Part shown: piece by piece, positions 11,761 through 54,948 of the stretch
How the letters are laid out: every line of letters begins with the position of its first letter
How positions within the stretch are numbered: the first letter of the stretch is position 1
Assembly: GCF_030913635.1 (NCBI RefSeq)
Contig: NZ_CP133188.1
Location: 1,984,001-2,048,000, forward strand
Origin: Sedimentibacter sp. MB35-C1
Lineage (GTDB): Bacteria; Bacillota; Clostridia; Tissierellales; Sedimentibacteraceae
DNA length: 64,000 nucleotides
Direction: 5' to 3'
Notes under the pieces: model-generated
The model's input: only the letters and a program-made list of their open reading frames with translations
The model's database searches: none
Told to the model about the DNA's origin: nothing
Translations under genes and position numbers: made by a program

Positions 11761-11772
11761 TTCGGAGGTAAG

Positions 11773-19110: not shown

Positions 19111-19207
19111 GGGGATAGATAGGTGCTGGTGTGCCTCCTGGTCTTCAAAACCAGTCGCGGGGCGTTTGCTCGTCCTGGGTGGGTTCAATTCCCACATATT
19201 CCCGCCA
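19111..19207 (+). tRNA. selC: tRNA-Sec (anticodon TCA)
   Basis: The 97-nt molecule has CTGGT/ACCAG anticodon arms around a CTTCAAA loop, giving anticodon TCA at 19145-19147 that reads UGA. It has the features special to tRNA-Sec: a six-pair D stem (AGGTGC with GTGCCT, including G-T pairs), a long variable arm, and an extended acceptor stem. The T arm is GTGGG/CCCAC with loop TTCAATT. CCA is encoded at the 3' end (19205-19207). The universal stress protein start is only 14-17 bases downstream. Confidence 0.96.
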
Positions 19208-40944: not shown

Positions 40945-41706
40945 ATGCCAACAGTATATTTAAGTCCGTCTACACAGGACTTTAACATGTTTGTTACAGG
41001 TGACGGAAGCGAAGAATACTTTATGAATATGATAGCTGATGCAATGATACCGTATCTTCAGCAGTTTGGGATAGATTACTACAGAAATACACCTGAAATG
41101 ACAGCGGGCTCTTCGCTCAGAGATTCAAATTCTAGAGATGTTGATTTTCATATAGCGATTCATTCAAATGCATCAGGTCCGGGACAGGAAGGGCGAAACA
41201 GGGGTGTTATAGTATTCTATTACCCTACAAGTACAAACGGCCAAAGAATGGCTAATATAATGGTTGATAATTTCAGAGAAGTATATCCGCTTCCCAATGA
41301 AGTAAGAGCAGTAGCTACAACGAGCTTGGGAGAAGTTTCAAGAACATCTGCACCGTCGGTATTAATTGAAGTTGCTTATCATGACAATGTAGAAGATGCA
41401 AACTGGATAGAGAATAATATTGATACAATTGCAAGAACTTTGGCTGAATCGGTAAATGAATTCTTTGCAGGAGCTCAGCCCGAGGTTCAGCCCGAAATGC
41501 AACCGGGTGCCGCAAGGACCGGAAGAGTGACGTTATCAAGTGGTTACTTAAACATCAGAAACGGACCGTCTCTAAATGCACCAGTCATAGGTATGGCTCC
41601 AAATGGAACGGTGGTTACAGTTACAGAGCAGGTTGGGGACTGGTATAGAGTTTTATATAACGGAACAGACGGCTATGTAAGTAGACAATATATAACGATT
41701 CAATAG
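40945..41706 (+). CDS. N-acetylmuramoyl-L-alanine amidase-like protein with C-terminal SH3b domain
   Basis: Residues 1 to about 180 form an Amidase_3 fold, with FHIAIHSNA supplying a zinc His and SVLIEVAYHDN the catalytic Glu. The SH3b domain follows (GYLNIRNGPSLNAPVIG, then DWYRVLYNGTDGYVSRQYI), after a Glu/Gln/Pro linker. The first zinc motif (DPGHGG in the family) is replaced by LSPSTQD, so one His ligand is missing. There is no signal peptide, as in mother-cell lytic enzymes such as CwlC. GGAGGG precedes the ATG. Confidence 0.85.
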   Translation: MPTVYLSPSTQDFNMFVTGDGSEEYFMNMIADAMIPYLQQFGIDYYRNTPEMTAGSSLRDSNSRDVDFHIAIHSNASGPGQEGRNRGVIVFYYPTSTNGQRMANIMVDNFREVYPLPNEVRAVATTSLGEVSRTSAPSVLIEVAYHDNVEDANWIENNIDTIARTLAESVNEFFAGAQPEVQPEMQPGAARTGRVTLSSGYLNIRNGPSLNAPVIGMAPNGTVVTVTEQVGDWYRVLYNGTDGYVSRQYITIQ

Positions 41707-41804
41707 GAGGCATCAAATAAATGACGATTTTTTATTGTATAAAACTAGTCGTCATTTTATTATGAAAAAGTTGTTTACATTTATAACAGTGAGTAATATA
41801 ATTA

Positions 41805-41832
41805 TATTTGCAAATGCAAATTATTTGCAATA
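41805..41832. promoter_or_regulatory. Zur/Fur-type dyad, downstream copy
   Basis: The 28-bp sequence is identical to the copy at 43381-43408 except in the middle. Its dyad TTGCAAATG-N5-(T/C)ATTTGCAA has one mismatch. It flanks the metal-related genes on the other side from the upstream copy. Confidence 0.65.
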
Positions 41833-41915
41833 CAACTAAACTTAAAAAAATAACAGCATATACTTAAAAAATTGCTGTTATAATACATTAAAACTGAAAA
41901 AATCGAACCTCCTAA

Positions 41916-42800
41916 TTAATAAGGATAAATATAACCTTTAATTTCCAGGGCAGGCATAATAGATGTTACAGCTATTTGGGGTTCGACCTGCCCCTCGTAC
42001 TGACCTCTGATAATTTCACCCTCTACAGTTATCCACTCATTGGATGCAAGTTCAGATGCCTTGTCGTACCTGCACAGTATTCCGATAGGAGCCAGATCAG
42101 CTGCGCAGCATACCATTGCAAGTCTGGCAGCTACGAATTCATCCTCTTCGAAATACTCCATGTCATTGAATACAAAACCTGTTATTGTAATCATATAGCC
42201 TTCATAAGCATCTAAGTTTCCGTATATCTCTGCAATCCACGGGTAAAATTCTTCGTTGCTCACAGTTATTATCTTATTTTCCTTATCTAAGCCGGTAAGG
42301 TCAAGGCTGTTGTCCTCGCTTGAAGGAACGGTATCTTCAGGTGATGAATTAGCAGTATCAGGTTGAGTGATTTCCTCTCCACCAAAATCATTTTCAGTAA
42401 TGCCGGGTATAGAATCCAGATTAAAGTCAGAATTGTCTGACAAAGCTTGATTGTTGCTCCTATTGGAAGTTCCCTGATAAAAAGTACTGCCTCCTGCGTA
42501 ATTTGATGCCAGATTTGCCATATCAAGAGGCTTGTGGGGCAATAACAGAAGCAAGGATGGAAGCACCAGCACAAGGAAGTGAAAAGCGCGTATTTTGTGA
42601 TGGGGTCTGAACATTCTAAAAAGGCTCATGCATGCCCATATAATCATAATTATCGCAGTAAAATACAGATAAGGTTTCATTTTGGGGGTAACATACAAAA
42701 GATATTTGTCACTTGTTATAAAATAAAACATGTATCCGCCGAAAATCAAATAAGAAATAAATTCTAAAAAAACCTGAGCGTTGAACGATCTTGCTTTCAT
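41916..42800 (-). CDS. TIGR03943/DUF1980 family putative metal permease subunit
   Basis: The protein starts with two or three membrane helices (FLEFISYLIFGGYMFYFIT, YFTAIIMIIWACMSL, FLVLVLPSLLLLLP), then an acidic low-complexity linker, then a C-terminal domain (residues about 170-294) with FVFNDMEYFEEDEFVAARLAMVCCAADLAPIG, the CC pair being the family signature. The family goes with COG0701 permeases and CobW proteins in zinc-regulated loci, which fits the dyads here. The partner permease is not intact in this window. GGAGGT precedes the ATG. Confidence 0.75.
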   Translation of the reverse strand: MKARSFNAQVFLEFISYLIFGGYMFYFITSDKYLLYVTPKMKPYLYFTAIIMIIWACMSLFRMFRPHHKIRAFHFLVLVLPSLLLLLPHKPLDMANLASNYAGGSTFYQGTSNRSNNQALSDNSDFNLDSIPGITENDFGGEEITQPDTANSSPEDTVPSSEDNSLDLTGLDKENKIITVSNEEFYPWIAEIYGNLDAYEGYMITITGFVFNDMEYFEEDEFVAARLAMVCCAADLAPIGILCRYDKASELASNEWITVEGEIIRGQYEGQVEPQIAVTSIMPALEIKGYIYPY

Positions 42801-43004
42801 CTAAATACCTCCCATTGAAAACATAAATACCGCAAAAAAGAATACTGCAAATATGGTAAACAATAGCTTTCCAATAAACCGTCTTGTAAACTGTGCTACA
42901 AGAATATTTATTTCTTTGGATTCATTTTTGTTTAGCAAATTGTTCAAAAAGGTTGTTTTTCCGGAATCCAGAAATCCGGTAGCTATATAAACAGGTATGC
43001 TCAT
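42801..43004 (-). pseudogene. Rearranged remnant: CobW GTPase N terminus joined to a foreign membrane tail
   Basis: Residues 1 to about 37 are the start of a CobW-like GTPase: IPVYIATGFLDSGKTTFLNNLL contains the P loop. The rest of the GTPase is missing. From about residue 40 the frame continues as a basic segment and one membrane helix, like the last helix of a COG0701-type permease. The simplest reading is an internal deletion that fused the two genes in frame. It overlaps the upstream fragment by one base (TAATG) and the permease gene follows directly. Confidence 0.6.
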
Positions 43005-43285
43005 TATTGTTCTCCGCTAAAAATATATTCAAGCTCACGAGAGCTTAAGTTTTTGCCTATAATGCATAATATGGGACTGCCTTCAACTGTGCACTTTATC
43101 AACTGAATGTTTCCCGGAATGTATTGTAAATTTAAATATCCGTTCTCACTGCACAAAATTCCCTTTGCCCTGAGAATAGTTCCTGATGCGTTTTGCTCCA
43201 TAAAGTTAATCTTGTCTTTTAATTCATTTATGCTGAATAGCTTGTCTGTATGTAATAAAAGTTCATTCGAATTAATTTTATCCAA
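43004..43285 (-). pseudogene. CobW C-terminal domain fragment, 5' truncated
   Basis: The 93 residues match the C-terminal domain of CobW/ZNG-type metal chaperones (INELKDKINFMEQNASGTILRAKGIL). The TTG at 43285 has no ribosome binding site, and the frame stays open upstream to about 43345 with CobW-like sequence (LNSKSRIFSE), but no P-loop domain is present. A different frame starts after GGAG near 43340 and stops after five codons. The gene looks truncated by loss of its 5' part. Confidence 0.6.
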
Positions 43286-43380
43286 AGACTCTGAAAAAAT
43301 ACGAGATTTTGAATTAAGCTTTTTAAATATCTGTAGCCATAAAATTCTCCAATATTTTGGTGTGCAAATATAAATCCAAG

Positions 43381-43408
43381 TATTTGCAAATGCGTATCAT
43401 TTGCAATA
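43381..43408. promoter_or_regulatory. Zur/Fur-type operator upstream of the CobW/permease genes
   Basis: A perfect dyad TTGCAAATG-N5-CATTTGCAA within a 28-bp block, placed just upstream of the minus-strand operon. Length, AT content and position fit a Fur-family metal repressor, and the CobW and TIGR03943 genes point to zinc. The consensus is not identical to the Bacillus Zur box, so the regulator is inferred. Confidence 0.65.
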
Positions 43409-43498
43409 AATTTATTATATAATGACGTTTTCTCAAAGTCAAGAAAATGAAACCGACAAGATAAATATTGTTAGATAAAAACAGAGCATGGTATATAC

Positions 43499-43539
43499 AA
43501 GAAAGACATATCCAACACTTATGTGGATATGTCTTTCTT
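43499..43539 (-). terminator. Terminator of tRNA-Leu
   Basis: A 16-pair perfect stem (43499-43514 with 43524-43539) lies just 3' of the tRNA on the minus strand and ends in TTTCTT. Confidence 0.75.
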
Positions 43540-43541
43540 AA

Positions 43542-43624
43542 TGCGGTCGGGGGGATTTGAACCCCCACGAATATACATTCGCTAGCCCCTCAAGCTAGTG
43601 CGTCTGCCGTTCCGCCACGACCGC
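43542..43624 (-). tRNA. tRNA-Leu (anticodon GAG)
   Basis: GCGGTCG pairs with CGACCGC in the acceptor stem, CTAGC/GCTAG make the anticodon stem around TTGAGGG giving anticodon GAG, and the variable arm is long as in class II tRNA-Leu. The T arm is GGGGG/CCCCC around TTCAAAT. The length is 83 nt and CCA is not encoded. Confidence 0.95.
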
Positions 43625-43839
43625 GAACTGCTTTATTATTATAAGTGATGCAAAGGAATTTGTAAAGAGAAATTTTCAAGAAAATTATGGTATAATATGA
43701 ATATTCATGGTAAGAATACTAAAAATTCAGACCTTAATTCTCTTGTAATATTTTCCTGAATGGATTATAATTATATTATAATATATAGTTAAAGTGTGCA
43801 TAATGCAATATGGAAATCCTTTACTCAAAACAGGCATAA

Positions 43840-43862
43840 TGTTATTTGACAAACAAATAACA
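43840..43862. promoter_or_regulatory. Perfect 9-5-9 dyad over a -35 element upstream of the redox-sensor module
   Basis: TGTTATTTG (43840-43848) and CAAATAACA (43854-43862) are exact reverse complements around ACAAA, and TTGACA at 43846-43851 overlaps the dyad. It resembles operators of redox or metal regulators in layout but matches no consensus I can name with certainty. The rest of 43625-44006 holds an AT-rich spacer, the tRNA promoter and a weak stem at 43910-43934. Confidence 0.55.
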
Positions 43863-44006
43863 AATGTATTAATCGGAAGACTGTAACGTAAATCGGTTAA
43901 ATAAACCAATCAGCTTTAAATGAAAAAGCTGATAGATGATGAATAACTGTTATGTTGACAGCAATGTTTCTTTTATAAAAAAATAAGTATAGGAGTTGGG
44001 GACTTT

Positions 44007-44360
44007 ATGAAAATTAAGGAGATGGCTGAAATTTTAAACGCTGAAATACTGACTGATTTTAGTAAGGATGATACTGACATAAAACATGGATTTGCAAGTG
44101 ATTTGATGAGTGATGTACTGGCATATGCCAACAGTGAGTCGCTGCTTGTTACCGGATTAAACAATGGTCAGGTTATAAGAACTGCAGAGATGTTGGACAT
44201 GTGTACTGTGTTGTTTGTAAGAGGCAAGCAGCCGTGCAAGGAAGTAATAGAGCTTGCACGGGAGAATTCAATAACGGTACTTGCAACAAATTATACCATG
44301 TTTAAAACATGCGGAAAATTAGTGTTAAACGGTATGAAGGGAATAGAATCGGATGACTGA
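44007..44360 (+). CDS. DRTGG domain protein (first copy of redox-sensor module)
   Basis: A 117-residue protein with one DRTGG-type domain (AEILNAEILT, ASDLMSDVLAYANSESLLVTGLNNGQVIRTAEMLD, CTVLFVRG). Such domains are often nucleotide- or regulatory-binding units. It starts a cluster of six overlapping or closely spaced genes, the next start lying eight bases inside its end. Confidence 0.8.
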   Translation: MKIKEMAEILNAEILTDFSKDDTDIKHGFASDLMSDVLAYANSESLLVTGLNNGQVIRTAEMLDMCTVLFVRGKQPCKEVIELARENSITVLATNYTMFKTCGKLVLNGMKGIESDD

Positions 44361-44778
44361 AAGTTTCTTAAAGCGTTACAGCTTTGACATCGTTGCAAAT
44401 GATTTCATAGCTGCCGGCAAGGGGTCGAGCACCATCAAGAATTTACTAAAGTCAATGGGAATAGAAGCAAATCTTATCAGAAAGATAGCTATTACATCTT
44501 ATGAAGCGGAGATAAATATTGTAATACATTCATATGGAGGTCAGCTTCACTGTGATTTGTATGAAGATAAAATAGTTATTGTTTCTCAGGATACCGGTCC
44601 CGGAATTAAAGATGTGGAGCTTGCATTAACTGAAGGATACTCCACTGCGACTGAAAGTGTCAGGGAACTTGGTTTTGGCGCAGGCATGGGTCTGCCGAAT
44701 ATGATGAAATATTCTGATGACTTTGAAATTACTTCAAGCAGTGACGGCACGGTTATTAAAATTACTATTTTATTATAG
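44353..44778 (+). CDS. GHKL-type ATP-binding regulatory protein (anti-sigma factor-like)
   Basis: A 141-residue stand-alone ATPase domain of the RsbW/SpoIIAB kind, with the N box EAEINIVIH, the G1 box DTGPGIKD and the G2 box GFGAGMGLPNM. No dimerisation domain of a histidine kinase is present. It may act as a protein kinase or switch toward another member of this cluster. GAATCGGATG overlaps the DRTGG end. Confidence 0.8.
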   Translation: MTESFLKRYSFDIVANDFIAAGKGSSTIKNLLKSMGIEANLIRKIAITSYEAEINIVIHSYGGQLHCDLYEDKIVIVSQDTGPGIKDVELALTEGYSTATESVRELGFGAGMGLPNMMKYSDDFEITSSSDGTVIKITILL

Positions 44779-44787
44779 GAGGCAAAC

Positions 44788-46044
44788 ATGAATTTTTCAA
44801 TAATGTTTGATAAGGATAAATGTAAATGCTGTACAAACTGCATCAAGAGATGTCCAACACAAGCTATAAGGCTGGTGGATGGAAAAGCTTTCATAAATAA
44901 TGACAAATGCATACACTGTGGCGAATGCATAAAGGTTTGTCCATATAATGCGTATACGCCTGAGCCAATTGAATGGTACGAAGAAATGCATTTTTCATCA
45001 TATAAACATAAAATTGCAATTTCATCCACACCGCTATACGGACAGTTTCCCAAAGGAACTGATATATGTAAGGTTCAGAATTCCATACTAAAACTGGGAT
45101 TTGATTCTGTATATGATGCCAGCTGGGCGGCTGAAATGGTAGGAATGGCCATAAAAAGAAAAATTAATGAAGAAAAAATAAGGCCATTTATTTCTACAAA
45201 CTGTCCTGCAGTGGTAAGATTAATAAAAAACAGATATCCTTCGTTAATGGATCATTTGATTTTGATAAAGGAGCCAATGGTAATTGCAGCAATGCTTGCC
45301 AGAGAAAAAGCAAAAAAGAAACTGGACCTGAAAGATGACGAAATCGGTGTGTTTTACCTTTCACCATGCCCGGCCAAGCTGCTTGCGGTAACGGATCCTG
45401 TTGGTGATTACAAGCCGTATGTGGATTGGGTTATACCTCTTAATACTATTTACGGAGAATTATACAGAGAATTGGTTAAGGGTGACAACGGATTATGCTC
45501 ACATCCTTCACTGAACGGTACAAAATGGGCTGTATCGGGAGGTCAATCGGAATCAGCTGGGCTTACAAATTATATTGCCGTAAACGGGATGGAAAACATA
45601 ATTCAGATTCTTGACGAAGTAGAAAATGGAAATCTTACTAATGTTGATTATGTTGAGACACTTGCTTGTGTTCAGGGGTGCGTAGGAGGGACGTTCAATG
45701 TAATAAATCCGTTTATAGCCCAAAGCAATATTAATTATATTTTGGGAAACACAAAAGATGAGAGCATAATAGAAGAACTTGATGAATTTGATGAAATGTA
45801 TGAGTCTGGGGTCTTTAAATTTTCTCTTAAGCCGGAAGAAAACCAAGGGAAATTTAATATGAAGGAAGCAATTATCAAAAGAGAAAAAATAAAAGAAATA
45901 TATGATAAACTTCCCGGTTTGGACTGTGGCTCATGTGGAGCGCCAACCTGTTATGCTCATGCAGAGGATATATATAATAATGAATCAACTCTTTATAATT
46001 GTGTAGTGTTGAGAGCCAACAAAATAACTGAGGAGGGAAGATGA
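44788..46044 (+). CDS. [FeFe]-hydrogenase-like iron-sulfur protein, sensory type (HsfB/group D-like)
   Basis: Two 4Fe-4S ferredoxin clusters lie at the N terminus (CKCCTNCIKRCP and CIHCGECIKVCP). An H-cluster-like domain follows with reduced motifs: TNCP in place of TSCCP, SPCPAK, and ETLACVQGCVGG. The C terminus ends with CGSCGAPTCYAHA, a further 4Fe-4S motif. The four motif Cys for a cubane remain, but the usual two-Cys first motif does not, so a sensing rather than hydrogen-producing role is likely. Start AGGAGG. The gene overlaps the following DRTGG start by ATGA. Confidence 0.85.
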   Translation: MNFSIMFDKDKCKCCTNCIKRCPTQAIRLVDGKAFINNDKCIHCGECIKVCPYNAYTPEPIEWYEEMHFSSYKHKIAISSTPLYGQFPKGTDICKVQNSILKLGFDSVYDASWAAEMVGMAIKRKINEEKIRPFISTNCPAVVRLIKNRYPSLMDHLILIKEPMVIAAMLAREKAKKKLDLKDDEIGVFYLSPCPAKLLAVTDPVGDYKPYVDWVIPLNTIYGELYRELVKGDNGLCSHPSLNGTKWAVSGGQSESAGLTNYIAVNGMENIIQILDEVENGNLTNVDYVETLACVQGCVGGTFNVINPFIAQSNINYILGNTKDESIIEELDEFDEMYESGVFKFSLKPEENQGKFNMKEAIIKREKIKEIYDKLPGLDCGSCGAPTCYAHAEDIYNNESTLYNCVVLRANKITEEGR

Positions 46045-46373
46045 AAATTATAGATTTTGCAAAAAAAATGGATTTATATCAGTTATATGATTCAAAAGAC
46101 GATATTGAAATAGAAGGAGTATATATAGGTGACTTGCTTAGCATAGTGATGTCAAAGGCAAAAATGAACTATGCATGGATAACAATTCAAACACATGTTA
46201 ACATAGTAGCTGTTGCTGAACTGCTGGATTTGTCCTGCATTATTGTAGTTGAGGACATGGAGGTTGAGCAGGAAACAATTGAAAAGGCAAAGGAACACGG
46301 AATTCCTCTGTATAAATCGAAAGAAAGCGCCTATGAAACAGCATGCAGGCTGCAAAGCATGGGAATAAAATGA
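46041..46373 (+). CDS. DRTGG domain protein (second copy)
   Basis: A 110-residue protein with the same fold as the first member: ITIQTHVNIVAVAELLDLSCIIVVED and a YIGDLLSIVMSKAK segment. It overlaps the hydrogenase-like gene and the PHP gene with ATGA junctions, so the three are translationally coupled. Confidence 0.75.
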   Translation: MKIIDFAKKMDLYQLYDSKDDIEIEGVYIGDLLSIVMSKAKMNYAWITIQTHVNIVAVAELLDLSCIIVVEDMEVEQETIEKAKEHGIPLYKSKESAYETACRLQSMGIK

Positions 46374-47095
46374 AATATTATTATGACTTGCATATCCATT
46401 CTGATTTGTCGCCATGTGCAAGCGAAGATATGACTCCAAGCAATATTGTAAACATGTCATATATAAAAGGATTAAATATTATTTCAGTAACAGACCACAA
46501 CACTACTGAAAATCTTCCTTCGTTTTTACAATTGTGTGACAATAGAGGAATTAAATTTATACCGGGTATTGAGGTTACTACAAAGGAAGAAGTACATGCT
46601 CTTTGCTATTTCATGAAACTTGATAGGGCGATGGACTTCGGAAGACTAATATATGATTCTCTTCCGGATATAAAAAACATTCCATCAATTTTTGGGCAGC
46701 AGAATATTTACAACAACAAAGATGAAGTAACGGGAACTTTGGATAAGCTTTTGCTGAGTGCTTCAGGCTATTCGCTTGAAGAAGTGTGTTCTTTAGCTCA
46801 TAAACATTGTGGAACAATGATTCCTGCTCATATAAATAAAAAATCTAACAGTGTCCTGGGTATACTTGGGTTTATCCCTCCAGGACTTAAAATCAATTTT
46901 GTGGAAATTCACTCTAAATCGGAAATAAATGAAAAAGTTATAAAAAAATACAACATCATAAAAAATTCAGATGCACATTATTTAACGGATATATCAGAGG
47001 CAGTAAACAGTATTGAGCTTAACAATGCAGATGAGATTTACAAATACCTTTTTATAAACAGTTTGTTAAATGACTGCGGTACGGAGGGATCATGA
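46370..47095 (+). CDS. PHP domain phosphoesterase
   Basis: The metal motifs are DLHIHSDLSPCASED near the start, SVTDHNT, HINK, and a C-terminal NSDAHY. It belongs to the COG0613 kind of PHP phosphoesterases, usually 240-280 residues; this is 241. Start ATG at 46370 overlaps the previous stop (ATGA). Substrate unknown. In this setting it could act in the signalling module. Confidence 0.8.
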   Translation: MKYYYDLHIHSDLSPCASEDMTPSNIVNMSYIKGLNIISVTDHNTTENLPSFLQLCDNRGIKFIPGIEVTTKEEVHALCYFMKLDRAMDFGRLIYDSLPDIKNIPSIFGQQNIYNNKDEVTGTLDKLLLSASGYSLEEVCSLAHKHCGTMIPAHINKKSNSVLGILGFIPPGLKINFVEIHSKSEINEKVIKKYNIIKNSDAHYLTDISEAVNSIELNNADEIYKYLFINSLLNDCGTEGS

Positions 47096-47637
47096 AAGAA
47101 ATATCAATGCACATACTTGACATTGTAATGAACAGCATTAAAGCCGGAGCAACATTAATAGAAATCAATATATACGACAGCATTAAAAATAATTGTTTAA
47201 TAATTACAATAAAGGATAACGGAATAGGTATGAGCAGTGAAACAGCTAAGCTTGTAACTGATCCGTTTTTTACTACCAGGACAACAAGAAAGGTGGGGCT
47301 GGGCATACCAATGCTGAAGGAAGCATGTGAAAGATGCAACGGAAGCATGGAAATAAATTCGGAAATAGGTAAGGGGACAGTAATTAAATGCTGTTTTGAA
47401 AGAAATAATATAGATAGAGCGCCCCTTGGAAATATGGGTGACACAATTATGACAATAGTCAATAGCCTCGAAGAATGTGAATTAATATACAATCATAAGA
47501 CCGACGAGGGAACATTTTCCTTGAACACTACTGAAGTGAGAGAAGTGCTTGACGGTGCCAGCATAAAGAGCGGTAAAATCTTACTCTGGGTTAAAGAGTA
47601 TGTTAATGAAAATATAAAAAGTATATCTATTATTTAA
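47092..47637 (+). CDS. GHKL ATPase domain protein (histidine kinase-like)
   Basis: A 181-residue stand-alone GHKL ATPase. The N box is HILDIVMNSIKAGA, the G1 box DNGIGM, the F box DPFFTTR, and the G2 box GLGIPMLKEA. There is no His-phosphotransfer domain, so it likely needs a partner. It overlaps the PHP gene by ATGA, and closes the module in front of rnf. Confidence 0.8.
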   Translation: MKEISMHILDIVMNSIKAGATLIEINIYDSIKNNCLIITIKDNGIGMSSETAKLVTDPFFTTRTTRKVGLGIPMLKEACERCNGSMEINSEIGKGTVIKCCFERNNIDRAPLGNMGDTIMTIVNSLEECELIYNHKTDEGTFSLNTTEVREVLDGASIKSGKILLWVKEYVNENIKSISII

Positions 47638-47733
47638 CAAGGAAAACGGAGCAAATCGATAATAATTGTTTTAAATAATTAGAAATTTAAATAATAATTA
47701 AAAAAATAATCAAAAAAGGTGTTTAAAAGTTGT

Positions 47734-47752
47734 CGATTATCTGATATAATCG
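47734..47752. promoter_or_regulatory. Extended -10 promoter of the rnf operon with an overlapping dyad
   Basis: TATAAT (47745-47750) with TG in the extended position (TGATATAAT) sits inside CGATTAT-CTGAT-ATAATCG, a perfect 7-5-7 dyad. A half site ATCGATAAT lies near 47656. An operator at the rnf promoter is plausible. The regulator cannot be named. Confidence 0.55.
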
Positions 47753-47819
47753 ATTTGTTTGATTATTAAATAACTTTTATATATCACTTATATAAAACAT
47801 TAAAACAAGAGGTGAAAAT

Positions 47820-49151
47820 ATGAGCACAAAATTGTTTACATTTAAGGGCGGAGTCCACCCACCCACAAACAAGACGCTAACACAAAATGTGCCAATTGAG
47901 AATGCAGTTGATCCTAAAGTTGTTGTTATACCTTTATCACAGCATATAGGAGCACCATGCGACCCATTAGTTGCTGTGGGAGATACGGTAAAAGTTGGAC
48001 AAAAAATAGGCGAATCAAAAGCCTTTATGTCAGTACCGGTACATTCCAGCGTATCAGGAACAGTTAAAAAAATTGAGCAGCATTATGTGCCGAACGGTTC
48101 TAAAGTTAATTGCATCGTAATAGAATCAGACGGCAATTTTGAGGTTTATGAATCTGTTCAACCGAAAGGAAACATTGAAGACCTTACAAAAGAAGAAATC
48201 TTATCAATAATCAAAGAAGGCGGTATGGCAGGTATGGGAGGGGCAACATTCCCTACTCACATTAAATTAAGTCCTCCAAAAGACAAGCCAATTGATGTTT
48301 TACTTGTTAACGGCGCAGAATGTGAGCCTTATTTAACTGCCGACCATAGAATAATGCTTGAAAAACCTGAGCTTGTATTATTGGGTGTTAAAGCAATAAT
48401 GAAGGCTCTTGGTGTTGATAAATGCTTTATCGGAATTGAAAAGAACAAACCTGATGCAATAGAAATAATTCAGAAGGCAGTTGAAGGACAGGAAGGCATA
48501 GAAGTTGCTCCATTGGAAATAAAGTACCCTCAGGGAGACGAAAAGAGAATAATTAATGCCATAACAGGAAGGATAGTACCATCAGGCGGACTTCCTATGG
48601 AAGTTGGATGCGTGGTTGAAAATGTCGGCACTGTTGCTACAATAGGCAATATTTTTAAAACAGGCATGCCTTTGATACAAAGAGTTGTTACTGTATCAGG
48701 AAGTGCGGTTCAAAATCCAAAGAACCTTTATGTTAGAATAGGTACTTCTTACAAAGATGTAATTGAACAATGCGGAGGATATAAGGAAGAACCTGGGAAG
48801 CTTATAAGTGGCGGACCTATGATGGGATTTGCACAATTTACAGATGAAGTATCCGTTATAAAAGGCACTTCAGGAATTCTTGCGTTCAGCAAAAAAGAGG
48901 CAGATCTTGGGGAACCATCCAACTGTATTATGTGCGGAAGATGTTTGGAAGCATGTCCTGTTCACCTTCAGCCATATAAAATCAGTAGATATTCTATTCA
49001 AAAGAATTTTGATGCTGCTGATGAGTTCCATGCTGCAGATTGTATAGAATGCGGCGGATGCTCTTACATATGTCCGTCAAAAAGACCGTTGAAAGAAACT
49101 ATATCTGTTGCAAAAAAAGAAATTTTAGCAAGACGTAGAAAGGTAAAATAG
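47820..49151 (+). CDS. rnfC: Ion-translocating oxidoreductase subunit RnfC
   Basis: RnfC links NADH to the Rnf chain, which couples ferredoxin:NAD electron transfer to ion pumping. It has GGVHPP near the N terminus, a flavin/NAD fold with GGMAGMGGATFPTHIKL, and two C-terminal 4Fe-4S motifs (CIMCGRCLEACP and CIECGGCSYICP). The length of 443 aa is normal. AGAGGTGA precedes the ATG. It opens the operon rnfCDGEAB. Confidence 0.97.
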   Translation: MSTKLFTFKGGVHPPTNKTLTQNVPIENAVDPKVVVIPLSQHIGAPCDPLVAVGDTVKVGQKIGESKAFMSVPVHSSVSGTVKKIEQHYVPNGSKVNCIVIESDGNFEVYESVQPKGNIEDLTKEEILSIIKEGGMAGMGGATFPTHIKLSPPKDKPIDVLLVNGAECEPYLTADHRIMLEKPELVLLGVKAIMKALGVDKCFIGIEKNKPDAIEIIQKAVEGQEGIEVAPLEIKYPQGDEKRIINAITGRIVPSGGLPMEVGCVVENVGTVATIGNIFKTGMPLIQRVVTVSGSAVQNPKNLYVRIGTSYKDVIEQCGGYKEEPGKLISGGPMMGFAQFTDEVSVIKGTSGILAFSKKEADLGEPSNCIMCGRCLEACPVHLQPYKISRYSIQKNFDAADEFHAADCIECGGCSYICPSKRPLKETISVAKKEILARRRKVK

Positions 49152-49163
49152 GAGGAAATACAG

Positions 49164-50111
49164 ATGGAAAACAAATTAATTGCTTCATCGTCACCTCATA
49201 TTAGATCGAATGAAACAACTCAAGGTTTAATGCTGGACGTAATTATTGCAATGCTGCCGGCATTAGTAGCAAGTGTATTTTATTTTGGATTTAATTCAGT
49301 TGTATTAGTGGTGGCTTCAGTTATATCAGCAGTTATAACAGAATATATATGTAACAAATTAATGAAAAAATCGGTTTCAATTGGTGATTTAAGTGCGGTT
49401 GTAACAGGAATATTATTAGCATTCAACATACCCGCATCAGCACCATGGTGGTTGCCTGTTATGGGATCTGTTTTTGCTATTGCAATAGTAAAACAGATTT
49501 TTGGAGGAATAGGGTTCAATATAGTAAACCCAGCATTAGCTGGAAGAGCATTTTTGATGTCATCTTGGTCAACTCATATGACAGGCGGATTTATAGATCC
49601 TGTTACTGACGCTGTTTCTGCTGCCACTCCTTTAACATTGATTAAAGGTGGTTCAACAGGACAGTTACCTTCAATTTTTGATATGCTTCTTGGAAACATC
49701 CCGGGCTGCATTGGAGAGACATCAGCAATATTAATAATACTAGGCGGCTTATACTTAATATACAGAGGAACTATTAAATGGATTATCCCTGTATTTTATA
49801 TAGGAACTGTTGCGGTTTTAGCACTGATATTTGACGGCGGAAGCATGGCTTTGTATCATTTGTTCGGAGGCGGACTGATGCTTGGTGCTTTCTTTATGGC
49901 TACAGACTATGCAACAAGCCCTATTACAGATAAAGGTAAAATTATTTATGCAGTAGGAGCGGGTGCTCTTACGATTTTAATAAGAAAAATCGGCGGATAC
50001 CCTGAAGGAGTCTCTTATTCAATACTTCTAATGAATGTTATCACTCCTTTAATTAATAAGTACGTTACCCCTAATGTATTTGGAGTTGCAGGAGGTAAAA
50101 ATGAAAAATAA
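49164..50111 (+). CDS. rnfD: Ion-translocating oxidoreductase subunit RnfD
   Basis: A membrane subunit with about nine helices. It has the PHIRSNETTQGLMLDVIIAMLPA start and the DAVSAATPLT segment that includes the covalent FMN site. 315 aa. It overlaps rnfG by eleven bases. Confidence 0.96.
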   Translation: MENKLIASSSPHIRSNETTQGLMLDVIIAMLPALVASVFYFGFNSVVLVVASVISAVITEYICNKLMKKSVSIGDLSAVVTGILLAFNIPASAPWWLPVMGSVFAIAIVKQIFGGIGFNIVNPALAGRAFLMSSWSTHMTGGFIDPVTDAVSAATPLTLIKGGSTGQLPSIFDMLLGNIPGCIGETSAILIILGGLYLIYRGTIKWIIPVFYIGTVAVLALIFDGGSMALYHLFGGGLMLGAFFMATDYATSPITDKGKIIYAVGAGALTILIRKIGGYPEGVSYSILLMNVITPLINKYVTPNVFGVAGGKNEK

Positions 50112-50667
50112 TATATTTAAACTCGGTGGAGTATTATGCTTAATCTGCGCTATAGCAGGCGGTGTTCTTGCATTTGTAAATGATTTTACAAAGGATAAAA
50201 TTGCTGAGGCTGAATTAAAAGCAAGTATGGATCCTGCGGTTCTTGAGGCTGTTATGCCTGGTTCTACAATGTTTGAACCATATGAAGATCAGGCGATTGT
50301 TGAAACAATTAAATCAGAGAACACAAAATTTGAAGATTTATATGTTGCGGTTGATGATTCCGGCAATCAGATGGGATACGTTGTGAAAACATTGAGCACT
50401 GTTGCAGGATACGGTGGAGATATGGAATTATTCGTAGGTTTCGCAGACGGTAAAATTTCTGGTATGAGCGTTTTATCTCATCAGGAAACTTCAGGACTTG
50501 GTTCAAGAACAACAGAACCTGAATTCCAAAGCCAGTTTATCGGAAAAGACGCAAGTACCGAAATAACAGATTATGATGCAATAACAGGTGTTACAAAATC
50601 TTCTGTTTCATTTACAAGCGCCTTGAATAATGCAATCAGTGTTTATAATCAATATGTAAATAAATAG
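50101..50667 (+). CDS. rnfG: Ion-translocating oxidoreductase subunit RnfG
   Basis: One N-terminal membrane helix and an extracytoplasmic FMN domain, with the covalent flavin attachment motif ITGVTKSSVS near residue 165. ATG 50101 follows GGAGGT inside the end of rnfD. An upstream in-frame ATG is not needed. 188 aa. Confidence 0.95.
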   Translation: MKNNIFKLGGVLCLICAIAGGVLAFVNDFTKDKIAEAELKASMDPAVLEAVMPGSTMFEPYEDQAIVETIKSENTKFEDLYVAVDDSGNQMGYVVKTLSTVAGYGGDMELFVGFADGKISGMSVLSHQETSGLGSRTTEPEFQSQFIGKDASTEITDYDAITGVTKSSVSFTSALNNAISVYNQYVNK

Positions 50668-50676
50668 GAGGTAGAG

Positions 50677-51273
50677 ATGGACAAGAGAAAAATATTAACA
50701 AACGGTTTTATTAAAGAAAACCCTGTTTTTGTTCAGCTGCTTGGAATGTGTTCTGTACTTGCAATAACCACATCGGTTATGAATGGAATAGGTATGGGTG
50801 TTGCCGTTACTGTAGTATTAATAGGATCAAACTTTGTTATATCACTTTTAAGAAAAGTTATACCCGATGAGGTTCGTATACCTGCATTTATAATAGTAAT
50901 AGCAACTTTTGTAACAATAATAGATTTATTTATGCATGCGTACACGTATGATTTGTATAAGTCTCTTGGTGTATTTATACCACTTATTGTTGTTAACTGT
51001 ATTATACTTGGAAGAGCTGAATCATTTGCTTCTAAAAATGGCATCGTTGATTCAATAATAGATGGTTTAGGAATGGGTATGGGATATACATTCGCAGTAG
51101 TTGTATTAAGTGCTATAAGAGAGCTTATAGGTAACGGTACTTTGTTAGGAATACAAGTTATGGGAGAAAGTTATGAACCTATGATGATGATGGTTCAGCC
51201 TCCTGGAGCGTTCATTGCATTAGGCTTGCTAATAGGTCTTGTTAACTTCTTGACAAGAAAAAAGAAAGCATAG
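50677..51273 (+). CDS. rnfE: Ion-translocating oxidoreductase subunit RnfE
   Basis: A polytopic membrane protein of 198 aa of the RnfA/RnfE pair, with NPVFVQLLGMCSVLAIT and GVFIPLIVVNCIILGRAES. It holds the conserved Cys used for the membrane Fe-S centre in this pair. Confidence 0.96.
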   Translation: MDKRKILTNGFIKENPVFVQLLGMCSVLAITTSVMNGIGMGVAVTVVLIGSNFVISLLRKVIPDEVRIPAFIIVIATFVTIIDLFMHAYTYDLYKSLGVFIPLIVVNCIILGRAESFASKNGIVDSIIDGLGMGMGYTFAVVVLSAIRELIGNGTLLGIQVMGESYEPMMMMVQPPGAFIALGLLIGLVNFLTRKKKA

Positions 51274-51285
51274 GAGGTATATTAA

Positions 51286-51861
51286 ATGGATTTAGTTAGT
51301 ATATTTATTTCATCATTTATAGTAAATAACATTATATTTATGCAGTTCTTGGGAGTTTGTCCCTTCCTAGGAGTTTCCAAAAAAATTGATACTGCTGCAG
51401 GCATGGGTATTGCAGTTATATTTGTTATAACTCTGTCATCAATAATAACTTATATTATTCAGACAGCTGTTTTAGATAGATTTGGACTTGAATATTTGCA
51501 GACGATAGTCTTTATATTGGTTATAGCTTCATTGGTTCAGTTTGTTGAAATGTTCTTAAAGAAATCAAGTCCTGGTTTATATCAGGCACTTGGCGTTTAT
51601 TTGCCGTTAATCACAACAAACTGTGCGGTTCTTGGTGTTGCTATCAATAACTTTGGATATGAGTACAATTTTATTCAGGCATTGATATATTCCATCGGTA
51701 CATCGGGAGGATTTTTATTGGCTATTGTATTATTTGCGGGAGTCAGAGAAAAAGTTGATTCTGCAGATGTTCCTGGTTGCTTAAAAGGTTCACCGATTGC
51801 TTTAGTGGCGGCAGGTTTGATGTCTATTGCATTCCTTGGATTCTCAGGATTAAAACTTTAG
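51286..51861 (+). CDS. rnfA: Ion-translocating oxidoreductase subunit RnfA
   Basis: A polytopic membrane protein of 191 aa, inverted relative to RnfE. Its motifs are NNIIFMQFLGVCPFLGVSKK and LGVYLPLITTNCAVLGVAI. The two TNCAVLG/VNCIILG segments of RnfA and RnfE are matching halves. Confidence 0.96.
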   Translation: MDLVSIFISSFIVNNIIFMQFLGVCPFLGVSKKIDTAAGMGIAVIFVITLSSIITYIIQTAVLDRFGLEYLQTIVFILVIASLVQFVEMFLKKSSPGLYQALGVYLPLITTNCAVLGVAINNFGYEYNFIQALIYSIGTSGGFLLAIVLFAGVREKVDSADVPGCLKGSPIALVAAGLMSIAFLGFSGLKL

Positions 51862-51873
51862 GAGGAATAGATT

Positions 51874-52680
51874 ATGGTTATAGTAAAGGCAATTGGAGTA
51901 TTAGCTGGATTAGGCGTCCTATCCGGAGGATTATTGGCAGTAGCCTCTAAAATTTTCCATGTGGATGTTGATCAGAAAATTATTGATATAAGAAACATTC
52001 TTCCTGGTGCAAACTGCGGTGCATGCGGTTTTCCCGGGTGTGACGGTATGGCAGCTGCAATAGCTGAAGGAAAAGCACCTGTAAATGGTTGTCCTGTGGC
52101 AAGCAGTGAAAAGCATCAGCAGATAGCTGCTATTATGGGAACATCGGCAGAAGAAACAGAAAAGATGGTCGCACATGTTTTGTGTCAGGGCTGTGACAGC
52201 GTAGCTGTTAAAAAATATGAATATGACGGTGTAAGAGACTGTAAGGCTGCTGCTGCGGTGCAGGGCGGACCGAAATCCTGCAGCAGAGGATGCCTGGGAT
52301 TTGGAAACTGTGTTGCTGTCTGTGACTTTGATGCTATTAAGATAGTTGACGGGATAGCAGTAATAGATAAAGAAAAATGTACAGCATGCGGTAAATGTGT
52401 AGCGGAATGTCCGAAATCGGTAATAGAATTTGTGCCGTACAAGAATAATGTGGTTGTTGGATGCAACAACAAAGACTTTGGAAAAGCGGTTAAGGATGTG
52501 TGTAAGGTAGGCTGTATCGGCTGCAAAATCTGTGAAAAGAACTGTGCTTTCGATGCCATACACGTTGTTGATAACCTTGCAAAAGTTGATTACGACAAAT
52601 GTACACATTGCATGGTCTGCGTACAGAAATGTCCTACAAAAGCAATACAAGGTGATTTAACAATATTAGAAAATAAATAA
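51874..52680 (+). CDS. rnfB: Ion-translocating oxidoreductase subunit RnfB
   Basis: RnfB accepts electrons from ferredoxin. It has an N-terminal helix, a Cys cluster (NCGACGFPGCDG), and several ferredoxin-type 4Fe-4S motifs toward the C terminus (CTACGKCVAECP, CIGCKICEKNC, CTHCMVCVQKCP). 268 aa. It closes the operon, with a terminator eleven bases later. Confidence 0.96.
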   Translation: MVIVKAIGVLAGLGVLSGGLLAVASKIFHVDVDQKIIDIRNILPGANCGACGFPGCDGMAAAIAEGKAPVNGCPVASSEKHQQIAAIMGTSAEETEKMVAHVLCQGCDSVAVKKYEYDGVRDCKAAAAVQGGPKSCSRGCLGFGNCVAVCDFDAIKIVDGIAVIDKEKCTACGKCVAECPKSVIEFVPYKNNVVVGCNNKDFGKAVKDVCKVGCIGCKICEKNCAFDAIHVVDNLAKVDYDKCTHCMVCVQKCPTKAIQGDLTILENK

Positions 52681-52690
52681 AAGTAAAAAT

Positions 52691-52720
52691 AAAAACCGTG
52701 CTGTCACGGTTTTTATTTTT
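52691..52720 (+). terminator. Terminator of the rnf operon
   Basis: AAAAACCGTG (52691-52700) pairs with CACGGTTTTT (52705-52714) around CTGT, followed by T's. Confidence 0.9.
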
Positions 52721-52748
52721 GTAAAATATATTACAGGATTAATTAACT

Positions 52749-52777
52749 TTGACAAAATTTGGTTATCGAATTATAAT
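52749..52777 (+). promoter_or_regulatory. Near-consensus promoter of the NAD salvage genes
   Basis: TTGACA at 52749-52754 and TATAAT at 52772-52777 are spaced by 17 nt, a perfect vegetative promoter. It overlaps any start codon upstream of 52821, ruling those out. Confidence 0.8.
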
Positions 52778-52820
52778 ATATGTTGATTGTAAAAAAATTA
52801 AATTTATAGAGGATGATTTT

Positions 52821-53459
52821 ATGGATGCAGCTAAGAAAATGGAACAGGAGTTAAGAGGGACGACATTGGATTTGGAATCTCTGGGAAAGAAGAAAACAGC
52901 CCTGTTTGTAATGGATATGGTAGTAGGATTTGTTTATTCAGGAGCATTATCATCGCCCCGCGTAGCATCGATTGTAGATAATATTGCAGAGTTGAATAAG
53001 AAAACAAGTGGTTATAGAAAAATATTTTTTTTAGACAGTCATGAAAATGATTCCCAGGAGTTTAGATATTTTCCGCCTCATTGTGTGTCCGGAACAGAGG
53101 AAGCTGCTCTGATACAGGAACTAGACAATGAAGATTCCAAGGGGGTTGAAACCGTATATGCAGAGAAGAACAGCACAAATGGGTTTCACAGCGCTATATT
53201 TAAAGAGTGGCTTGCGAATAATGAAGAAGAAGTTGATAACTATATTATTACAGGATGTGTTACTGATATCTGTGTTTTGCAGTTTGCATTAAGCTTAAAA
53301 TCATATTTTAATGAAATAAATAAAAATAAAAGAGTAATAATTCCTATGAATTGTGTGCAGACTTATGATGGTGGAGCTCACGACGGGTATCTTATGAATT
53401 TGTTTGCTCTTTACAATATGCATAACAGTGGAATAGAAATAGTAGAAAAAATAATTTAG
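52821..53459 (+). CDS. Nicotinamidase/isochorismatase family protein (PncA-like)
   Basis: It probably deamidates nicotinamide to nicotinate for NAD salvage. The catalytic triad is visible as Asp in ALFVMDMVVGF, Lys in AEKNSTNGF, and Cys in TGCVTDICVLQ. Length 212 aa is usual. ATG 52821 follows AGAGGA. The nicotinate phosphoribosyltransferase gene follows after thirteen bases, which supports nicotinamide as the substrate among isochorismatase-like enzymes. Confidence 0.85.
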   Translation: MDAAKKMEQELRGTTLDLESLGKKKTALFVMDMVVGFVYSGALSSPRVASIVDNIAELNKKTSGYRKIFFLDSHENDSQEFRYFPPHCVSGTEEAALIQELDNEDSKGVETVYAEKNSTNGFHSAIFKEWLANNEEEVDNYIITGCVTDICVLQFALSLKSYFNEINKNKRVIIPMNCVQTYDGGAHDGYLMNLFALYNMHNSGIEIVEKII

Positions 53460-53472
53460 CAGGAGAATACTG

Positions 53473-54948
53473 ATGTACCACAATAATTTTAGTGACAGGA
53501 AATTATCCATGCTTATGGATTTTTACGAACTTACGATGGCTAATGGATATTTTTCAAGCGGGATGAAAGATGAAATTGTTTATTTTGATATGTTTTTTAG
53601 AAAAAACCCTGATGGAGCAGGCTTTTCTATAGTTGCTGGGCTGGAGCAGGTTATAGAATATATAAAAGAGTTAAAGTTTACTGATGATGATATCGATTTT
53701 TTAAGAAATAAGAATTTGTTTAAAGAAGAATTTTTACAATATTTGAGGGACTTTAAGTTTTCCGGAGATATTTATGCAATACCTGAGGGCACTCCGGTTT
53801 TCCCGGGAGAGCCGCTGATTACAGTAAGAGCCAAGACTATAGATGCGCAGCTTATAGAAACGATGATGCTTTTAACAATTAATCATCAGAGCCTTATAGC
53901 AACAAAGGCGAACAGAATTGTGAGATCTGCCAAGGGCAGGCCTATAATGGAATTTGGAGCGAGAAGAAGCCAGGGATATGATGGTGCAATATATGGCGGA
54001 AGGGCCGCATACATTGGAGGTGTTGCAGGGACTGCAACTACGCTGGCTGACGAAATGTTTGGCGTTCCGGCACTTGGGACAATGGCACATTCTTGGGTTC
54101 AAATGTTTGAAAACGAATACGAATCATTTAAAGCTTATGCGGAGAATTATCCGGATAGTTGTACATTGTTGGTAGACACATATAATGTTATAAAAAGTGG
54201 AATTCCAAATGCTATTAAGGTTTCAAGAGAAATTCTTGAGCCAATGGGCAAGAGACTGAAAGGTGTACGTATTGATTCAGGTGATATTGCTTATTTGAGT
54301 AAAAAGTGCAGAGAAATGCTGGATGAAGCTGGGCTTACAGATTGCGGTATCGTTGCTTCAAACAGTCTGGATGAGTTTATAATAACCGATTTACTGGATC
54401 AAGGGGCAAAAATTGATTCCTTTGGTGTGGGAGAAAGACTTATTACAGCTAAATCCGAACCTGTATTTGGATGTGTATACAAGCTTGTGGCAATAGAGAA
54501 TGAAGGACAAATTATTCCTAAAATTAAATTATCTGAAAATGAAGAAAAGATAACTAATCCTGGCTATAAGAGAGTTTGGAGATTATATGACAGAAAGAAA
54601 AACAATCCTATTGCTGATGTTGTGTGTCTGTCACATGAAACTATTGATGATACAAAGCCCTATACCATATTTGATGAAATACATGTATGGAAGAAGAAAA
54701 AAATTAAAGACTTTTATGCAAAAAACCTTCAGGTACCTATATTTATAAAAGGAGAATGTGTGTATAAGAGTCCTACACTGGATGAGATAAGAGAGTACTG
54801 TCTGAAAGAGGTTTCAAACTTGTGGAATGAAGTCAAGAGGTTTATTAACCCTCATAGTTATTATGTGGATCTTTCTCCTGAACTCTGGAACTGCAAACAG
54901 GATTTAATAAGCCAGTTCAGTTTTAAGGATCCGGCTAATTTTTCTTAA
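53473..54948 (+). CDS. pncB: Nicotinate phosphoribosyltransferase
   Basis: It makes nicotinate mononucleotide from nicotinate and PRPP, the substrate of NadD, whose gene lies at 5.3 kb. The N-terminal DFYELTMANGYF is a hallmark, with EFGARRSQGYDGA and VRIDSGDIAYLS as active-site motifs. Length 491 aa fits the long bacterial type. AGCAGGAG precedes the ATG. Confidence 0.95.
   Translation: MYHNNFSDRKLSMLMDFYELTMANGYFSSGMKDEIVYFDMFFRKNPDGAGFSIVAGLEQVIEYIKELKFTDDDIDFLRNKNLFKEEFLQYLRDFKFSGDIYAIPEGTPVFPGEPLITVRAKTIDAQLIETMMLLTINHQSLIATKANRIVRSAKGRPIMEFGARRSQGYDGAIYGGRAAYIGGVAGTATTLADEMFGVPALGTMAHSWVQMFENEYESFKAYAENYPDSCTLLVDTYNVIKSGIPNAIKVSREILEPMGKRLKGVRIDSGDIAYLSKKCREMLDEAGLTDCGIVASNSLDEFIITDLLDQGAKIDSFGVGERLITAKSEPVFGCVYKLVAIENEGQIIPKIKLSENEEKITNPGYKRVWRLYDRKKNNPIADVVCLSHETIDDTKPYTIFDEIHVWKKKKIKDFYAKNLQVPIFIKGECVYKSPTLDEIREYCLKEVSNLWNEVKRFINPHSYYVDLSPELWNCKQDLISQFSFKDPANFS

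Follow-up and report, generated by a model that had tools for sequence, protein, structure and literature searches.

A HydS-containing six-gene module directly upstream of rnf in Sedimentibacter sp. MB35-C1: a possible sensor-relay set for a ferredoxin/NAD oxidoreductase

The gene set described here lies in a stretch of 64,000 nucleotides from Sedimentibacter sp. MB35-C1 (contig NZ_CP133188.1, positions 1,984,001 to 2,048,000 of the forward strand; hereafter the window). It comprises six genes, one of which encodes HydS, a [FeFe]-hydrogenase-like iron-sulfur (Fe-S) protein, and it stands directly in front of the rnf genes. Group D sensors encoded upstream of hydABC together with a kinase-like gene have already been published (PMC3561251, PMC3608648, PMC8163306). 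In Clostridium thermocellum (Cthe_0335, Cthe_0340-0342) and other species, the gene of a group D hydrogenase lies upstream of those for a bifurcating one, and a histidine/serine kinase gene often stands in between (PMC3561251). TamHydS of Thermoanaerobacter mathranii (group D, M2e) resembles HydS of the window in having two N-terminal [4Fe-4S] motifs, an H-domain, a C-terminal Cx2Cx4Cx16C motif and no PAS domain; it has likewise lost C299, carries Ser for M353 and Leu for M497, and is encoded next to a histidine kinase-like ATPase gene (PMC8163306). HydS proteins have been proposed to be sensors with unknown partners (PMC8163306, PMC13104023), and the 2026 study of TamHydS calls the identification of interaction partners critical (PMC13104023); work on group D 'sensory' hydrogenases has been done in vitro. 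The hydrogenase operon of Acetobacterium woodii encodes HydE, a protein similar to the ATP-binding domain of histidine kinases (PMC3315566); HydE here always denotes this GHKL protein and not the maturase. Among group C systems, the PAS-type sensory hydrogenase TmHydS resembles HydS in that its H-domain lacks C299 and a FeS motif is present at the C-terminus (PMC8163306), and HfsB shares an operon with a hydrogenase and the phosphatase-like HfsC (PMC11837493). Finally, in Clostridium ljungdahlii the regulator gene rseC lies directly before rnfC, as does the gene set of the window, and is described as forming its own transcript (PMC9124969).

The window departs from each of these systems. Unlike the A. 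woodii and C. thermocellum clusters, it has no hydC, hydD, hydB or hydA after the module, and hydE directly precedes rnfC. Compared by description, its HydS differs from the TamHydS type by having Asn, a minority residue, in place of C299, by a long branch and by preceding rnf rather than hydABC. A Pfam scan of the six proteins (E 0.01) showed no PAS domain, and the partners are DRTGG, GHKL and PHP proteins, unlike in group C. RseC belongs to PF04246, which none of the six matched at E 0.01. In searches of the open-licence PMC literature, in which most hits, including the one paper that contains both 'DRTGG' and 'hydrogenase' (PMC10102598), were screened at the level of listings, we found no description of the DRTGG-PHP-GHKL module as such or of its rnf-linked form.

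We put at about even the chance that the HydS module is an ATP-dependent sensor-relay set which tunes the adjacent ferredoxin/NAD oxidoreductase, usually HydABC and in this organism Rnf. The proposal builds on what the sequences show: gene order, family membership, conserved catalytic motifs, the co-occurrence of HydS and HydE, and the position of hydE, which nearly always precedes hydD-hydB or rnfC. Also in its favour are the Nuo51 FMN-binding domain of RnfC, the lack of hydE at the hydCDBA genes of the same genome and the two changes that the rnf-linked HydE requires on a quick tree.

HydS and its companions in the window and across the Clostridia

A preliminary description of this DNA had recognised a packed set of six genes directly before rnf, and all six open reading frames (ORFs) were confirmed at 44007-47637 on the + strand, tightly spaced and with rnfCDGEAB next downstream. 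The host genome is a single contig of 3.62 Mb. The features are as follows; bit scores are from a Pfam scan of the six module proteins (E 0.01) and stand beside the Pfam family cut-offs (aa, amino acids).

44007..44360, + strand: DRTGG1, DRTGG-domain protein of 117 aa (PF07085, 35.1 bits, cut-off 25.2)
44353..44778, + strand: GHKL1, SpoIIAB/RsbW-like ATPase of 141 aa (HATPase_c_2, 36.2 bits, cut-off 27.4)
44788..46044, + strand: HydS, group D (M2e)-type [FeFe]-hydrogenase-like protein of 418 aa, by its group D marks (PMC8163306; Fe_hyd_lg_C, Fer4 and FeS)
46041..46373, + strand: DRTGG2, DRTGG/HprK-N-like protein of 110 aa (Hpr_kinase_N, 25.7 bits, cut-off 24)
46370..47095, + strand: PHP, protein of 241 aa with a metal-dependent phosphoesterase domain (PF02811, 39.7 bits, cut-off 26.4)
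47092..47637, + strand: HydE-type GHKL protein (GHKL2) of 181 aa with a C-terminal part of its own (NNIDRAPLGNM...; PF02518 HATPase_c, 55.9 bits, cut-off 26.4)
47722..47750, + strand: promoter-like site before rnfC (TTTAAA, spacer 17, TATAAT, extended -10; 10 of 12), in a block conserved in Sedimentibacter
47820..52680, + strand: rnfC, rnfD, rnfG, rnfE, rnfA and rnfB, the probable target (rnfC named by domain, rnfD to rnfB from order and translation)

The ATGA packing given in the preliminary description applies to three junctions (four-base overlaps at 46041-46044, 46370-46373 and 47092-47095), but DRTGG1 and GHKL1 overlap by 8 bases (44353-44360) and GHKL1 and HydS are separated by 9 bases. 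The rnfC start at 47820 lies 182 bases past the sixth ORF. The 5' side of the module is occupied by a tRNA-Leu gene and opposite-strand ORFs, and in an RNA-element scan of 41500-54000 only the tRNA at 43542-43624 reached the gathering score.

HydS was found in 138 of 291 genomes drawn from the class Clostridia, with matches of E 1.1e-60 or better; the next-best matches, long ORFs of the usual hydrogenase size, begin at 1.1e-35. It was absent from all 12 genomes sampled within the order to which Sedimentibacter belongs. Own genome aside, 138 loci were taken from 137 genomes (below, G denotes a sampled genome, L a locus and f an arbitrary family label). In 112 class loci the sequence reaches at least 1.2 kb upstream and at least 3 kb downstream of HydS; all four partners (DRTGG, GHKL1, DRTGG and PHP) surround HydS in 103 of these, leaving nine exceptions, which argues that the module is not a product of chance. 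No gene fusions within the module were seen in 151 loci scanned. The upstream gene c8, present in 19 loci, had a weak NCBIfam match and no Pfam match at 1e-5 and was not counted as a member.

The genes beside this core were counted at 99 loci whose flanks extend at least 1.2 kb upstream and at least 6.8 kb downstream. At 59 of these hydABC was adjacent, bearing out the earlier claim that similar modules precede bifurcating hydrogenase genes. Such genes do not follow in the window, where rnfCDGEAB are found instead. A further six loci had hydCEDB and then rnf, without hydA, three had rnf directly, and in two HydS alone preceded an Nqr-like cluster. The comparison of gene order across Clostridia, which had been suggested as a check, thus shows a conserved linkage to redox genes through the hydABC- and rnf-linked loci.

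The HydS sequence has the Pfam H-domain PF02906 at residues 94-301 (93.7 bits, cut-off 22.1) and Fer4_7 at 11-55. Its plan consists of two N-terminal [4Fe-4S] motifs, an H-domain with TNCP, SPCPAK and LACVQGC, and the C-terminal Cx2Cx4Cx16C formed by C380, C383, C388 and C405. We compared 146 orthologues (138 class loci, the window and seven relatives), with CpI positions transferred to HydS by alignment. The C-terminal cysteines are kept in 145-146 of them, and C139, C194, C294 and C298, the aligned counterparts of the four cubane ligands, in all 146. N138 stands at the position of C299 (Ala in 112/146, Asn in 11/146), S192 at that of M353 (Ser or Thr in 145/146) and Leu at that of M497. The Cx2Cx4Cx16C motif is given for the M2e and M2f classes (Land et al. 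2020, PMC8163306), while loss of C299 and exchange of M353 for Ser/Thr mark group D, in which TSCCP is normally altered (PMC8163306). Judged by these published marks, the Fe-S protein matches a group D (M2e)-type putative sensory [FeFe]-hydrogenase of the TamHydS type. The H-cluster motifs had earlier been described as reduced. The L1 motif is indeed TNCP, but HydS is no H-cluster remnant: since the cubane cysteines are invariant and loss of C299 is a mark of group D, the altered L1 reflects the group D state and not decay. On a quick tree the Sedimentibacter HydS lineage, with its Asn at the C299 position, was flagged for its long branch. The nearest relative is that of Sedimentibacter sp. 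LM3-B4.1 (99% identity, L007). An AlphaFold2 model of HydS from 8 close sequences had a pLDDT of 34.0 and was not used.

The motifs of the four partners are well kept too. In DRTGG1, the segments DLMS (S35) and LLTGLxN...RTAEM (T49, T59) are near-invariant, with S35 in 129/129, T49 in 128/129 and T59 in 127/129 sequences; DRTGG2 has D31, S34, T48 and N54 each in 135/135, and scored just below the cut-off for PF07085 (24.4 bits against 25.2) and above that for Hpr_kinase_N. GHKL1 has an intact N-box (E51..N55), DxGPGI and GFGAGMGL, whose residues are kept in 133-137 of 137 sequences. The PHP protein contains HxH, DHN, E, H, H and SDAH; their His, Asp and Glu residues are present in 131-132 of 132 and the Ala of SDAH in 126/132 (residue numbering in this count begins 9 residues upstream). 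The preliminary description had suggested either a sensor that adjusts Rnf or a phosphorelay using GHKL domains, both of which are conjectural. Neither DHp/HisKA nor receiver domains were among the Pfam matches of the six proteins (E 0.01), so that a classical phosphorelay inside the module is unlikely, and a serine-kinase scheme of the SpoIIAB type would suit the motifs better. Serine kinase activity is established for proteins of the SpoIIAB type, and the PHP proteins include some protein phosphatases. By analogy, GHKL1 may act as a kinase and PHP as a protein phosphatase.

The small proteins could also be read in terms of a nucleotide signal, with DRTGG proteins binding a nucleotide that PHP degrades, so that the output would depend on a small messenger rather than on protein phosphorylation. 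DRTGG1 resembles part of the Mn-dependent pyrophosphatases, and PHP is closest to nucleic-acid and nucleotide phosphoesterases (EndoQ, 2yb1), which would fit such a role. However, the database scores of both resemblances are weak, and the Pfam matches of the six proteins include no nucleotide-synthase domain. We regard this explanation as quite improbable.

The sixth gene fits the position of HydE of A. woodii, and was assigned to it by gene order and domain. With a 28-row profile, HydE was detected in 148 of the 291 genomes, as a single match in all but two of those. HydS and HydE occur together in 134 genomes, HydS alone in 4, HydE alone in 14 and neither in 139; these are raw counts in which kinship is ignored. 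Two of the HydS-only genomes are 73% (G057) and 84% (G178) complete, and in the other two (G204, G215) the locus is cut by contig ends, G215 having a HydE fragment. The hydS and hydE genes are unlinked in many genomes. In most, the HydE family lies between hydC and hydD, whereas the copy in the window stands before rnfC. For 145 of the other 147 genomes with HydE the context was read: downstream of hydE are hydB (122), hydB and then rnf (7), rnfC (6), hydD only (2), hydC only (1) or none of these (7), the last group comprising three contig ends, one hydE after hydA and three genomes of family f25. Together, these distributions show that HydE pairs with HydS in the genome and adjoins one of two main neighbours on the map. 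The Sedimentibacter genome itself has hydCDBA (L044) without hydE, and its single hydE is the one before rnf.

The AlphaFold2 model of HydE (mean pLDDT 81.5, the last ten residues below 50) has a GHKL fold, with Z of about 11-13 to the ATPase domains of MutL, TopoVI and GyrB; Foldseek also returned histidine kinases, WalK first. No separate fold could be named for the C-terminal part, as the structure-match lists were filled by the ATPase domain. The model thus resembles ATP-clamp GHKL proteins at least as much as histidine kinases, which agrees with an assembly or repair set in which the GHKL and DRTGG proteins would be chaperone-like and insert or protect the flavin/Fe-S centres of a Nuo51-type subunit, HydS serving as electron donor or scaffold. 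Assembly is named as one possibility in PMC3315566, and the adjacency of HydE to hydB or rnfC is also in its favour. Nevertheless, the own hydCDBA has no adjacent hydE and no second one was found in the genome, the four HydS partners stay together in 13 of 19 loci with no such enzyme adjacent, and neither HydE nor HydS is present in nearly half of the sampled genomes (the 139 above). We therefore consider the assembly explanation unlikely.

The link to Rnf and the nature of the signal

A direct hydE-rnfC arrangement was seen in families f1, f47, f49, f71 and f78. Families f23 and f33 have hydCEDB and then rnf, with no hydA adjoining. The architecture seen in the window is found again in f47 and f49. 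Seven relatives were found; six of them, including Sedimentibacter saalensis DSM 13558 (L012), have hydE and then rnfC, and the seventh (L009) ends short of rnfC. In f78, a HydS-less copy, GHKL1-DRTGG2-PHP-hydE, precedes rnfC (L202) and HydS is found elsewhere, before an Nqr-like cluster (L097); f71 agrees as far as its shorter flank reaches, with DRTGG2-PHP-hydE-rnfC (L195) and its HydS in L154. A quick tree of HydE with 149 rows requires two changes for the rnf-linked rows, and its well-supported branches force two. RnfC of the window contains the Nuo51 FMN-binding domain PF01512 (1e-52), RnfC_N (9.2e-42) and SLBB. HydB is a Nuo51-type flavoprotein as well, and it clusters with RnfC in an all-against-all protein comparison, in agreement with this shared type.

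In both L097 (8009-9277) and L154 (7993-9240), a lone HydS precedes an Nqr-like cluster with homologues of RnfD, RnfG, RnfE and RnfA, and the same two genomes carry DRTGG2, PHP and hydE before rnfC at another site. An NqrF-like protein follows in L097 and an ORF of similar length from the same cluster in L154, and both loci were counted as Nqr-like, not Rnf.

The promoter-like site listed above is weak when taken alone (47722..47750), since the scan returned 31 sites in 4.5 kb against 20.6 expected. A search of the + strand between the module and rnf gave no terminator-like site, so there may be read-through into rnf. Because a conserved promoter-like block precedes rnf, however, rnf may also be transcribed on its own, and the link to the module could be one of protein contact or of mere neighbourhood. 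Rex was tried as a candidate regulator of rnf and rejected: TTGTTAA-N4-TTAACAA with up to 3 mismatches gave 21 hits in the window against 15.0 expected (10 of 100 shuffles gave as many), and none lay within 47638-47819.

The promoter-like block raises the alternative of a transcriptional switch, in which GHKL1 would be an anti-sigma factor of the SpoIIAB type and HydS and the DRTGG proteins would free or hold a sigma factor driving the neighbouring operon. The best NCBIfam match of GHKL1 is indeed anti-sigma F SpoIIAB (TIGR01925, 3.8e-12), but at 46.3 bits it falls below the cut-off of 135. Moreover, no STAS or sigma domain was among the Pfam matches of the six proteins, and the median gap of 0 between hydE and hydD leaves little to such a scheme. 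It is hard to credit that the module works in this way.

Several observations weigh against the proposal that the module tunes the adjacent oxidoreductase. The core lies beside pyrK/pyrD at 10 of the 99 loci, all of one family (f9, in which hydE is still with hydB), and beside none of the enzymes sought at 19, so HydS and the relay can live away from any such enzyme. Fourteen genomes have HydE without HydS. In three f25 genomes hydE precedes another gene, of the Mo-hydroxylase type in the one scanned; the next large gene of the second genome starts with the same residues and that of the third agrees in length. As for Rnf, hydE and the rnfC ORF lie 141-370 bp apart in ten loci, compared with a median gap of 0 between hydE and hydD across 80 loci, and an alignment of 7 loci shows the Sedimentibacter gap to contain the conserved promoter-like block. 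The rnf link therefore looks looser than the hyd link.

With regard to the signal, the own genome encodes the maturases HydF and HydG with a third radical-SAM-like gene adjoining, and an H-cluster is therefore possible in this organism. Thirty HydS genomes, chosen for a best HydF-model match weaker than 1e-40, had no match to the HydF-specific domain PF18133, which the own genome and four controls did match. A HydG match over the cut-off was absent in 27 of the 30, including the single-contig G063, rechecked with the own HydG protein. Because 24 of these 27 genomes keep another long H-domain protein, loss of the H-cluster cannot in general be read from missing maturases. The HydS genomes lacking HydF/HydG include G063, G163, G134, G252 and G101, where there is either a hydrogenase without known maturases or a gap in search or assembly. 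In G140 (97% complete, about 130 contigs), HydS is the only H-domain match, neither HydF nor HydG was matched, and hydCEDB runs into rnf without hydA. This case, in one genome, favours redox state over H2 as the signal; G240 (82% complete) and G083 (a contig-end fragment) say less about an H-cluster-free form.

Other neighbours were noted in passing. In f9, pyrK- and pyrD-like genes follow the core in 13 of 13 sampled HydS loci (including L090, L094 and L100), with one origin on the HydS tree, and in L090 a pyrE-like gene follows. L125 (f28) has a GGDEF-EAL protein at 10493-13609 after a five-gene core, and L137 (f28) an ORF of like length there. An 86-aa ORF paired with a 571-577-aa H-domain protein is common to the own genome and G096 (L048 8565-10542; L166 1510-3478); in G096 the pair shares the strand of HydS and is found about 13 kb downstream of it. 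After rnfB of the window, at 52821-54948, an isochorismatase-family gene and a nicotinate phosphoribosyltransferase gene are found, a pair that recurs after rnf in five other Sedimentibacter loci and possibly represents NAD salvage alongside an NAD-linked pump. Upstream of the module, 42801-43285 holds a CobW-like fragment of just 66 aa together with a 93-aa ORF, adjoining a DUF1980 gene, possibly a broken gene; the near-identical L007 has a 394-aa ORF around the matching place, on the strand opposite to the module. A selenocysteine tRNA (tca) gene lies at 19111-19207.

A possible relay and what it may mean

If the HydS module is a sensor-relay set, a plausible sequence is that HydS would read H2 and/or the redox state of ferredoxin and shift its conformation on reduction. 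Reduced HydS would then alter the SpoIIAB-like ATPase GHKL1, which may phosphorylate the invariant Ser/Thr residues of DRTGG1 and/or DRTGG2, and PHP would strip the phosphate from them. The state of the DRTGG proteins would be handed to HydE, a putative ATP-binding adaptor, and HydE in turn would act on the Nuo51-type flavoprotein subunit, HydB or RnfC. It should be underlined that we infer the signal, any phosphorylation, the order of these steps and an action on HydB or RnfC rather than on transcription.

A bolder form of the same idea, which we consider doubtful, is that of a new redox signalling unit with no histidine kinase, response regulator or DNA-binding protein. It would combine an H-domain redox sensor, in some hosts without a matured H-cluster, with a SpoIIAB-like kinase and a PHP phosphatase acting on DRTGG proteins, and HydE would be a portable gate for Nuo51-type subunits that was moved between HydABC and Rnf. 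An H-cluster-free form of such a unit is conceivable because the combination described for G140 fits it.

As far as the genes tell, the other members of the module are candidates for the missing partners of HydS. Four small proteins can now be named as its companions, since their genes stay with HydS in most loci (103 of 112). HydE accompanies HydS even when unlinked, and the neighbour of the module has changed from hydrogenase to Rnf. If the module does regulate Rnf, control of a main ion pump of many anaerobes would become testable with small soluble proteins.

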